From contig JAJTUQ010000003.1 in assembly GCA_021399445.1 (NCBI GenBank), forward strand, positions 2,480,001-2,544,000: a stretch of 64,000 nucleotides of DNA. Direction: 5' to 3'. Origin of the DNA: Xylogone sp. PMI_703. Taxonomy: Eukaryota > Ascomycota > Leotiomycetes. Below the pieces are notes generated by a model, which saw only the letters and a list, made by a program, of their open reading frames with translations, did not search any database and was not told the DNA's origin. The position numbers and the translations under genes are program-made. Shown here in pieces: positions 12,119 through 36,389 of this stretch. Position 1 is the stretch's first letter, and each line of letters opens with the position of its first letter.

Positions 12119-12145
12119 GGTCGATTAGCTCAGCTGGTTAGAGCG

Positions 12146-12197
12146 GTAAGATTCATCTACAGCATCACATCAATCCACATACTAATTTCTCTATCAG
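12146..12197 (+). other. 52-nt spliceosomal-type intron inside the tRNA-Ile gene
   Basis: It sits exactly between tRNA position 26 and the first base of the anticodon stem. Donor is GTAAGA, branch-like site TACTAAT (12180-12186), a pyrimidine-rich tail, and acceptor CAG. Length and motifs match mRNA introns elsewhere in the window, for example the one at 42175-42225. It shows no bulge-helix-bulge or anticodon-adjacent position expected of an endonuclease-cut tRNA intron. Confidence 0.75.
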
Positions 12198-12208
12198 TGG
12201 TGCTAATA

Positions 12209-12219
12209 TCTGTACGATT
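12209..12219 (+). other. Canonical 11-nt tRNA anticodon-loop intron
   Basis: The sequence TCTGTACGATT lies one base 3' of the AAT anticodon, the normal site for cleavage by the eukaryotic tRNA splicing endonuclease. The exact cut could shift by a base. Confidence 0.85.
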
Positions 12220-12266
12220 ACGCCAAGGCCGTGGGTTCGATCCCCACATTGACCAGCAGATTGATA

Positions 12267-12284
12267 TTTTTTTGAATTTTTTTT
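12267..12284 (+). terminator. RNA polymerase III terminator T-runs after tRNA-Ile
   Basis: A run of seven T (12267-12273) is followed by a run of eight T (12277-12284), beginning 11 bases after the tRNA 3' end. This is the usual Pol III stop plus a backup. Confidence 0.85.
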
Positions 12285-34178: not shown

Positions 34179-34841
34179 TGTGGTTCGCGACGCAGAACTG
34201 GCTCTGTTGGAGAGGACTGCTTGATTGAGTTTCGCAAGGATAACGGAATGAACACTACCTAATCGCTCTTGCCTTGTGAATACCGGCTCGGTACCGTAGT
34301 GGGTTCCACAGGCACTAAAACGCGTAACTGAGTTCCTGGAACGATCTCCGAACTTTAAATCAACTCTGATCTCTTCCCTAACTTACCACCCTGAAACCGT
34401 CAGCTGCCAAAGAGTCTACTCGGCTCTTCAGCTTATTATCAATGTTTGCAGAATTCTGTAAGTTTTGATTACAGGAAACTGTCATACTTTCTTTTTCAGA
34501 ATCATTTGCAGTCGTGTAAATGAGATAGTACCAAAACAAGAGAGATCCTTCATTCCTCGCTGCTTATATCTTTTTCTATTATTCTGGCAGATGGGTGTTT
34601 ACATGCCTGAATACTCTATGCTATCTTCCGAATTTTTTTATAAAAAATAACCTCCAATGAGGGCAGGTTCGTTGGTCTAATAAAACAACTAATACAATTG
34701 GCTATAAGACCAATCCTTCACAGCTGCCAAGGATGTGAGGAACCAAACCACTTCAAGTCTTTGTCTTCAAATTTTCTTGCTTCCTTCACTCTTTCGTGGT
34801 TCCTAAAACCTACAGCCGGATTGAAAGGCTATCCTTCTATA
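34179..34841. other. Divergent spacer, MED31 / HET gene
   Basis: AT-rich; holds the MED31 promoter and the leader of the HET gene. An in-frame upstream extension of the HET ORF reaches 34698 but lacks family similarity. Confidence 0.5.
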
Positions 34842-36389
34842 ATGCGTCTCATAAATGTTGAGACATATGATCTCGTAGAGTTCGAGACTGATGTTTCTGG
34901 ATATGCAATTCTATCGCATACATGGGGTGATGAAGAAGTAACCTTTCAGGACATGCATCGAGGCCTTGATTTTGCTCGCAGAAAAAAAGGCTTCACCAAG
35001 ATCCAGGGAACATGCTCCCGAGCTAAAGCAGATGGGTTCTCCTATGCATGGGTCGATACTTGCTGCATAGACAAGAGCAGTAGCGCAGAATTATCGGAGG
35101 CTATCAACTCCATGTATCGATGGTATCAGAAAGCGGAGATATGCTACGCTTTCATTTCCGACGTACATATGGATGGAATCCCCTGGGAGTCCCAATTCAG
35201 GGACAGTAGGTGGTTTACCAGAGGGTGGACTCTTCAGGAGCTTCTGGCACCAGCTGAGCTGATATTTTACTCAGGAGATTGGGTTCGCATCGGCAGTAAG
35301 GCGGAGCTAAGTAAACTGATATCAAGTATCACTCAAATTGATGAGAACGCACTCGAAGGTACGAGATTAGACAGCTTCAGCATAGCTCATAGGCTGTCCT
35401 GGGCCTCAAGGAGGACTACAAAAAGACTAGAGGATATGGCATATTGCTTACTTGGAATATTTGATGTGAACATGGCATTGCTCTACGGCGAAGGGGAGCG
35501 TGCATTCACACGACTTCAAGAAGAGATTATTAAGACTTCTGACGACCATTCAATCTTTGCTTGGTTTACCAAAGGGGCAGATCCTAATGCTGAACGTGGG
35601 CTTCTGGCAACTTCGCCCAAAGAATTTGAATATTCTGGAGGAATAGTCCCCATCATGGAACCGACAACCTCCAGTATACCCTTTACAATGACCAACAAGG
35701 GACTGAGGATTGCACTAAACGTTTCCTTACCCAGTAGCCACAATGGTACTTATCGTGCAGTCATCAATTGTTCGCGGATGGATAGACCAGAGCTATTATT
35801 TCGAATCTCTCTTAAACAACTCACAGCTATTGGCGACCAGTATTGCAGGGTAGACACCCATATGCTTGTGCCTCATAATATGATTGATCCTGGATATCAT
35901 ATGGAAACTTTGTATGCCCCTCAGAGAATACCAAATAATCTTTTATGGGCAGCACTTAATGAGGGTGACTTCGACTATCGGTTGTTCATCAGCGCCGTAT
36001 ACCCGCTTCAGATAGAAGAGATTCTTTATCCTGATACGGAATCTACATATAAGCCTAACATGCATACCATGCCTCTGGAAATCAAAATATCGAAAAAGAC
36101 GGACAACTGGGGTGCAATAAAAGTATCGGGGACAGAGCACTTTGCATACGACTATAGTTTTTCAGTGTTATATAGATGGGTCCAACGGTATGGAGTTGTG
36201 ATACGTCTTTGTCCTTCGTTTAGTATGAAGGATGGAGTTATTGATGTAGATTTGAACGCGCCCAGTCTGCTCCAGGTAGAGGTGAAAGGCCACGGATGGA
36301 AAAAGAGGTTAATATCCGCTAGATCTACACAGGGAATAAAACAAGGTTGGGGAATGCATATGGTGCATCTTGATGTCATCGAGACATAG
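34842..36389 (+). CDS. HET-domain protein (heterokaryon incompatibility type)
   Basis: A member of the HET family, which in filamentous fungi triggers cell death on non-self fusion; most copies have unknown specificity. The single exon gives 515 aa from MRLINVETYDLVEFE, the standard HET start. The open frame extends to 34698 but the extra residues are unlike the family. HET motifs in order are YAILSHTWGDEEVTFQDM, KIQGTCSRAKADGFSYAWVD, TCCIDKSSSAELSEAINSM, YRWYQKAEICYAFISDV and DSRWFTRGWTLQELLAP. RRTTKRLEDMAYCLLGIFDV with LYGEGERAFTRLQEEI follows, as in HET-D/E-type N-terminal blocks. No NACHT, WD40 or ankyrin module follows. The C-terminal 200 residues are not assigned. There are no stops or frameshifts. 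Confidence 0.92.
   Translation: MRLINVETYDLVEFETDVSGYAILSHTWGDEEVTFQDMHRGLDFARRKKGFTKIQGTCSRAKADGFSYAWVDTCCIDKSSSAELSEAINSMYRWYQKAEICYAFISDVHMDGIPWESQFRDSRWFTRGWTLQELLAPAELIFYSGDWVRIGSKAELSKLISSITQIDENALEGTRLDSFSIAHRLSWASRRTTKRLEDMAYCLLGIFDVNMALLYGEGERAFTRLQEEIIKTSDDHSIFAWFTKGADPNAERGLLATSPKEFEYSGGIVPIMEPTTSSIPFTMTNKGLRIALNVSLPSSHNGTYRAVINCSRMDRPELLFRISLKQLTAIGDQYCRVDTHMLVPHNMIDPGYHMETLYAPQRIPNNLLWAALNEGDFDYRLFISAVYPLQIEEILYPDTESTYKPNMHTMPLEIKISKKTDNWGAIKVSGTEHFAYDYSFSVLYRWVQRYGVVIRLCPSFSMKDGVIDVDLNAPSLLQVEVKGHGWKKRLISARSTQGIKQGWGMHMVHLDVIET

Follow-up and report, generated by a model that had tools for sequence, protein, structure and literature searches.

Candidate spliceosomal-type introns outside the anticodon loop in tRNA-Ile(AAU) and tRNA-Arg(UCU) genes of the fungus Xylogone sp. 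PMI_703

In textbooks, the splicing of tRNA by an endonuclease and a ligase is kept apart from the splicing of mRNA by the spliceosome, and the transcripts of RNA polymerase III (Pol III) are usually not spliced by the spliceosome. A tRNA-Ile(AAU) gene in the genome of Xylogone sp. PMI_703, a fungus placed in Leotiomycetes incertae sedis, raises the question of whether an intron of the mRNA type can reside in a tRNA gene that works. The gene lies in a stretch of 64,000 nucleotides that was analysed as a whole and is called the window below (positions 2480001-2544000 of contig C19, in an assembly of 50.1 Mb and 25 contigs). The original prediction, made from the sequence alone, placed there a tRNA interrupted both by a canonical tRNA intron and by a spliceosomal-type intron in the D-arm. 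Its letters and coordinates are correct for the exons, for the 52-nt and 11-nt inserts and for the T-runs downstream (Table 1). The joined tRNA comprises 74 nt including the discriminator A, the comparisons described below being mostly made on the 73 nt without it; its stems are all paired, as predicted, and no non-standard pair is present in this copy. Box A and box B are uninterrupted here, as had also been claimed, and in two sister genes box B is split. The Rfam tRNA model covers 12119-12255 with 40 bits (gathering 29). ARAGORN called no tRNA anywhere in the window; when introns of up to 300 nt were allowed, it miscalled the gene as tRNA-Tyr with a single 59-nt intron. The window also contains an exon of a HET-domain (heterokaryon incompatibility) protein, PF06985, at 34644-36386.

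Table 1. Features of the window tRNA-Ile(AAU) gene (window positions) and locations of the tRNA-Arg genes and their decayed relatives (contig positions)
Feature	Position	Strand	Basis
tRNA-Ile(AAU) exon 1, nt 1-26 (acceptor 5' strand, D-arm)	12119..12145	+	Rfam RF00005; cloverleaf pairs standard
Box A, TAGCTCAGCTGG	12126..12137	+	Box A consensus
D-arm intron of spliceosomal type, 52 nt, between nt 26/27	12146..12197	+	Signals; exact empty site in the C12 copy
5' splice site GTAAGA of the D-arm insert	12146..12151	+	
Branch-point motif TACTAAT; branch A presumed to be 12185, at 12 nt from the intron 3' end	12180..12186	+	
3' splice site CAG of the D-arm insert (insert end CTATCAG)	12195..12197	+	
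Exon 2, nt 27-37, anticodon AAU	12198..12208	+	
Canonical 37/38 tRNA intron, 11 nt, presumed endonuclease type	12209..12219	+	
Exon 3, nt 38 to discriminator	12220..12255	+	
Box B, GGTTCGATCCC, uninterrupted in the window copy	12234..12244	+	
Two T-runs (12267-12273, 12277-12284), Pol III terminator-like	12267..12284	+	
L087, tRNA-Arg(UCU), D-arm insert of 55 nt	C20:1776664-1776790		
L127, tRNA-Arg(UCU), D-arm insert of 57 nt	C19:6932707-6932835		
L129, decayed tRNA-Arg relative, intron-free	C21:5038121-5038179		
L130, decayed tRNA-Arg relative, intron-free	C12:89379-89437		

Sister loci were collected by a DNA search of the genome, which gave L002, L003 and L004, and by an insert-free query, which added L036. 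A D-arm pattern returned eight exact matches, five of them being the Ile loci, and 66 rows with one mismatch allowed; 30 of these 66 rows were fetched and run through ARAGORN. Five Ile(AAU) loci were found, and all but one have the D-arm insert between nt 26 and 27; the four are the window gene, L002, L003 and L004, and the insert length is 52, 57, 53 or 54 nt. L003 and L004 carry an extra insert in the T-loop, between nt 57 and 58, of 51 and 53 nt (GTATG...TTCTAAC...CAG). In L036 (C12:7328440-7328530), both ectopic sites are exactly empty. The canonical 37/38 intron, 11-17 nt long, was found in all five loci. The search for further Ile(AAU) copies, which had been recommended with the prediction, revealed an insert at the same site in most of them. 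The existence of many intact intron-free copies had been named as a finding that would speak against the claim. One such copy exists, namely L036, and the window locus alone could be dispensable because of it.

The exons of L002, L003, L004 and L036 are identical over 73 nt once the inserts are removed, and these four loci are dispersed in the genome, one each being on C12 and C20 and the other two being separated by about 0.95 Mb on C19. The window copy differs from them at 10 sites, with no broken pair in either form. Six of these differences combine into three compensatory changes that affect both sides of a pair (A-T/C-G at 6:67, T-A/C-G at 50:64 and G-C/A-T at 52:62); the remainder comprise one C/T change within a pair, which stays G-C or G-T, and three changes at unpaired positions. 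After insert removal, the cloverleaf is complete and contains only standard pairs in the window copy, in the other Ile copies and in the Arg genes described below. The exon pattern of the window copy, with three compensatory pairs and no broken pair in either form, is the one expected from selection for a working tRNA.

The splice signals were tested with the rule GT[AGT][AGT]G ... CTRAY ... YAG. The window insert follows it, and none of 200,000 shuffles of this insert does. All six ectopic inserts of the Ile genes agree with the rule, with 0 to 2 of 200,000 shuffles passing per insert, and in all six the branch A lies 11-12 nt from the insert end. Since no shuffle passes and one Ile locus has an exactly empty site where the other four found have an insert, the window insert is not a product of chance. 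When the Arg genes are included, all eight ectopic inserts start with GT and end with AG; the 5' sites are GTAAGA in the D inserts of the window, L002 and L003, GTTAGT in that of L004, GTATGT and GTATGC in the T-loop and GTAAGT in both Arg inserts. The CTRAY branch motif is present in six of the eight, the Arg pair (GGTAAC and TTTAAC) standing outside the rule.

The signals are conserved between copies to a greater extent than the rest of the inserts. Identity over 16 signal positions amounts to 75-100% for the D inserts, 94% for the T insert and 81% for the Arg insert; the interiors are 55-70%, 67% and 57% identical, respectively, and shuffled interiors average 52-59%. In comparison with their own shuffles, the T pair and two of the six D pairs exceed the 95% mark and one further D pair falls on it, which indicates that some common ancestry among the inserts remains. 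The interiors of the Arg pair are at shuffle level.

The original prediction had also stated that the insert shares its grammar with the mRNA introns of the window. Five such introns were delimited by exact spliced alignment of window DNA to two annotated proteins, one of them Pal1; they measure 51, 65, 73, 85 and 199 nt and start with GTAAGT, GTGAGT or GTGAGA. The Pal1 ORF itself shares 96% identity with an NCBI protein of Xylogone sp. PMI_703, and a second ORF agrees with another protein of this fungus at 100% over 96% of its length. The statement stands for four of the five, which follow the rule, but not for the 199-nt intron, which has no CTRAY. The ectopic inserts, at 51-57 nt, lie inside the 51-199 nt span of these introns.

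A similar structure was found in tRNA-Arg(UCU) genes. In the parses made by ARAGORN and the Rfam model, L087 is an Arg(UCU) gene whose canonical intron is long and whose anticodon stem is poor. Reparsed with a 55-nt insert GTAAGT...CTTCTTAG between nt 25 and 26, the gene forms the anticodon stem CAAGA/TCTTG, and all 21 pairs of the insert-free form are standard. L127, which the automated search had reported as a truncated 33-bit match, has exons identical to those of L087 and an unrelated 57-nt insert, GTAAGT...CGTAG. The branch motifs of both inserts are the weaker GGTAAC and TTTAAC mentioned above, located near the 3' end. Two decayed relatives, L129 and L130, score below the Rfam cut-off with the anticodon arm still intact and contain the insert-free junctions ...GCAGCGC/GCAAGAC... 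and ...GCAGCGC/ACAAGAC.... The boundary of the Arg insert is therefore set by homologous empty sites and not by the parse alone. An origin of L129 as a retro-copy was considered and dropped; in an alignment inspected by eye, L087, L127 and L129 appear to have homologous flanks, which fits DNA duplication. The joined-Arg query matched L087, L127, L129 and L130. Among the matches listed for it, of which four candidates were scored so that the counts are lower bounds, no intact intron-free Arg(UCU) gene was present, though a divergent one may exist. AGA codons occur 11 and 10 times in two genes of the window.

Diverged interiors beside conserved signals, the empty sites, the T-loop site and the Arg(UCU) inserts all favour the predicted nature of the insert. 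On the evidence of these comparisons, the window insert is real, not due to chance and, with high probability, spliceosomal in type.

How widespread such inserts are was examined on a sample of tRNA genes rather than a full census, 63 of 1824 candidates having been scored and the window gene being absent from that listing. A cloverleaf scorer applied to 58 distinct sampled genes preferred a GT-AG ectopic insert in six of them, namely four Ile and two Arg loci, and 52 were better read without one; for L003 and L004 the scorer removed one insert only, and a separate comparison removed both. Canonical 37/38 introns are common in this genome; of the 52 genes read with no ectopic insert, 33 are parsed with such an intron (9 to 51 nt), and five Lys(CUU) genes have canonical introns of 9-12 nt. 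Genome-wide patterns were compared with controls. A strict T-loop intron pattern produced six matches against seven in the reversed control, only one of them a tRNA (L041, which is the L003 gene), and missed L004. Its relaxed form produced 16 against 22 in the reversed control, with a 5/5 T stem in just two of the 16, L003 and L004. An AGTGG-type D-arm pattern yielded one match against two, the match being no tRNA on reading. An AGTTGG-type pattern yielded four against five, three of the four being known Ile loci and the fourth having been read at the matched letters only. The T-loop and D-arm patterns are far from complete, as neither the window gene nor the Arg genes were recovered by them. 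The full Ile D-arm insert pattern had no match in collections of viral, bacterial and archaeal sequences, a result that does not bear on fungal relatives; 15 viral stretches with an exon-plus-GT pattern turned out on reading to be phage-type tRNAs without such an intron. The reading of Ala(AGC/UGC/CGC) genes as Pro genes with odd introns was rejected, L079-L092 showing plain canonical introns in Ala genes, as assigned by their identity elements. The single U6 gene above the Rfam cut-off, which is accompanied by three weaker U6 matches, has no intron, so that U6 does not add another case of a Pol III RNA that is spliced here. One exact LSU primer site is present in the assembly (L094 700-2400, C21:3181478 region); the ITS/LSU of L094 looks degenerate by eye and is perhaps a mutated rDNA copy.

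The promoter elements are relevant to whether the genes can be transcribed. Box A, assigned by the usual consensus, is TAGCTCAGYTGG in all five Ile genes and TGGCGCAATGG in both Arg genes. Box B GGTTCGANNCC was scored in 57 genes and has at most two mismatches in 55 of them, the exceptions being only L003 and L004; in four initiator-Met genes among those scored the best match falls in the anticodon arm, so that box B is not really judged there. Both boxes are present in the window copy, L002 and L036, and in L003 and L004 box B is split by the T-loop intron, which should weaken the binding of TFIIIC. In yeast, the U6 gene has an extragenic box B. A match to TTCGAAAC within 80 nt downstream was found in L003 (GGTTCGAAACT, one mismatch) and L004 (CCTTCGAAACT, three mismatches) and in none of the 55 others, and TTCGAAACT directly follows the T-run in these same two genes with split box B. 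It is possible that the downstream TTCGAAACT is a candidate extragenic box B. L003 and L004 share a 22-nt downstream patch, with no other mutual match within 1 kb flanks, and are not fully independent for this reason. A tRNA-His gene, L090, has a perfect GGTTCGATCCC downstream (+33) despite its own box B. In Schizosaccharomyces, the U6 introns contain a B-box match, according to the title of a study cited in PMC10484740, and in Cyanidioschyzon merolae the tRNA introns interrupt the A and B boxes, transcription being thought TFIIIC-independent in the excerpted text of PMC3978253.

An ectopic intron in a eukaryotic tRNA gene need not be spliceosomal. Introns in the D- and T-arm have been described for nucleomorphs and for C. 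merolae (PMC4090602 and PMC9602550, as excerpted), and the gene layout described here has a near-identical precedent in the tRNA-Ile(UAU) of C. merolae, as depicted in excerpts of the latter. The inserts of Xylogone could accordingly be removed by the tRNA splicing endonuclease, with their GT/AG ends arising by coincidence or drift. In passages of PMC3978253, the tRNA introns of C. merolae are up to 69 bp long and a defined bulge-helix-bulge (BHB) is missing from many ectopic introns of nucleomorphs, so that insert length and a missing BHB do not by themselves exclude the endonuclease; the review PMC4090602, in the part consulted, states that clear local motifs are lacking in eukaryotic introns, and both sources weaken the BHB argument. 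The D inserts of the Ile genes form 3, 3, 3 and 4 of 4 central-helix pairs (2 and 2 of 4 for the T inserts in this simpler count), and the BHB score of the L004 D insert is reached by only 88 of 2000 shuffles. For the other seven of the eight inserts, however, 752-1772 of 2000 shuffled introns score as well on a 10-position BHB score; such scoring is weak in any case, as the canonical 37/38 introns of the same genes reach just 1-2 of 4 central pairs. A stronger argument against the endonuclease than the BHB score is the identity of the letters conserved between copies, which are those of the 5' site, the branch and the 3' site and are unneeded by that enzyme. The inserts also measure 51-57 nt, compared with 11-17 nt for the canonical introns at 37/38 in these Ile genes. 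Removal by the endonuclease is unlikely. Several observations do count against a spliceosomal reading: besides the BHB score of the L004 D insert, these are the weaker branch motifs of the Arg inserts, the split box B and the intron-free U6 gene.

It might also be supposed that the insert-bearing copies are silent pseudogenes and that the tRNA is supplied by intron-free ones. D- and T-arm insertions in eukaryotic tRNA genes mostly concern one of many synonymous genes and are supposed to mark pseudogenes, according to the consulted portion of PMC4090602; an intron-free Ile(AAU) copy exists here, and two copies have a split box B. Of the genes found in Xylogone, however, four out of five for Ile(AAU) and both intact ones for Arg(UCU) have inserts, which is not one gene of many. 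Three insert-bearing Ile loci are letter-identical in their exons to the intron-free copy, the window copy has preserved its pairing through three compensatory changes, and the loci that do show genuine decay, L129 and L130, are themselves intron-free. The 11 and 10 AGA codons of the two window genes point in the same direction, and silent pseudogenes appear very improbable. The recurrence of the insertion sites and the emptiness of some copies might suggest small mobile or duplicated pieces of DNA sitting in tRNA genes, or assembly errors. The interiors are only weakly alike among the Ile copies and at shuffle level in the Arg pair, and an identical error would be needed at six loci on two contigs (C19 and C20), which makes this origin extremely improbable.

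It is thus quite probable, taking all parts together, that introns of the U2 type were gained at least three times in functional tRNA genes of this fungus, that the precursor, presumably made by Pol III, loses them as lariats through U1 and U2, and that the 37/38 intron is left to the endonuclease. At least three gains are needed because the inserts occupy three sites, namely Ile 26/27, Ile 57/58 and Arg 25/26. Loss of the introns in L036 would be a fair alternative to repeated gain, since the most diverged copy, that of the window, has the intron and L036, whose exons equal those of the other three, is without it. The structure of the genes, the conserved signals, the empty sites and the compensatory changes are read from the DNA directly; transcription, spliceosomal splicing, the order of the steps and the mode of gain we infer. 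The nuclear precursor would be bound by the U1 and U2 snRNPs through GTAAG and CTAAY, and the ectopic intron would depart as a lariat. The tRNA would fold next, and the tRNA splicing endonuclease would then remove the Ile 37/38 intron separately.

A more far-reaching proposal is put forward tentatively. The spliceosome may have become an obligatory tRNA-processing enzyme in this fungus: every intact Arg(UCU) gene found being intron-bearing, AGA codons, presumably including those in the mRNAs of splicing factors, might be unreadable without it. The Ile(AAU) tRNA would need two splicing systems in turn, and where box B is cut, a box B beyond the terminator (GGTTCGAAACT in L003; TTCGAAACT also in L004) could keep transcription going.

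If the spliceosomal reading is true, the spliceosome is able to act on a tRNA precursor despite the tRNA fold, and a single tRNA may combine an intron of either type, or an endonuclease intron with two spliceosomal ones. Such genes would offer a clean system for studying how, where and in what order a Pol III RNA is spliced. They would also be useful for testing the origin of introns, as paralogues that gained introns without coding for protein and for which empty sites exist. The tRNA finders used here forced the introns into the anticodon loop, shortened the gene or missed it, so that more fungal cases may be unseen. The search of tRNAscan-SE 2.0 for non-canonical introns is directed at archaeal tRNAs, as stated in the part of PMC8450103 consulted, and this scope may be a reason why fungal cases stay unseen.

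In the open-licence literature searched, no description of nuclear tRNA genes with spliceosomal introns was found. The structure combines two known things, ectopic tRNA introns and mRNA-type introns in Pol III genes, which were not found described together in that literature. The nearest relative of the second kind is the U6 snRNA gene of Schizosaccharomyces, a Pol III gene with an mRNA-type intron thought to be derived from reverse splicing (Tani and Ohshima 1989, as cited in the excerpt of PMC10484740). U6 is a component of the spliceosome and tRNA is not, and the Xylogone introns split the cloverleaf at three sites. The Schizosaccharomyces U6 intron has a B-box match, whereas the Xylogone T-loop intron splits box B and has, by eye, no B box inside. 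Fungal U3 snoRNA genes contain spliceosomal introns in a non-coding RNA gene that is not a tRNA gene (PMC5832005, in part), and nuclear rRNA genes with spliceosomal introns are a further case of mRNA-type introns in fungal non-coding RNA, the product being one of Pol I (title cited in PMC11782384). Among ectopic tRNA introns, those of C. merolae tRNA-Ile(UAU) are the most similar in arrangement, with three introns in the D-, anticodon- and T-arm of an isoleucine tRNA. As far as the excerpts of PMC9602550 extend, they differ in position (12/13 and 53/54, compared with 26/27 and 57/58 in Xylogone) and in their hBHBh' motifs, while the Xylogone inserts have GT-branch-AG signals and little BHB support. 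Guillardia theta also has D- and T-arm introns in eukaryotic tRNA genes, three in some, but these are 3-24 nt long and the Xylogone inserts are 51-57 nt long with splice signals. Canonical eukaryotic 37/38 introns reside in all five Ile loci found and in many other tRNA genes of this genome, and the ectopic inserts differ from them in position, in length and in the possession of splice signals.
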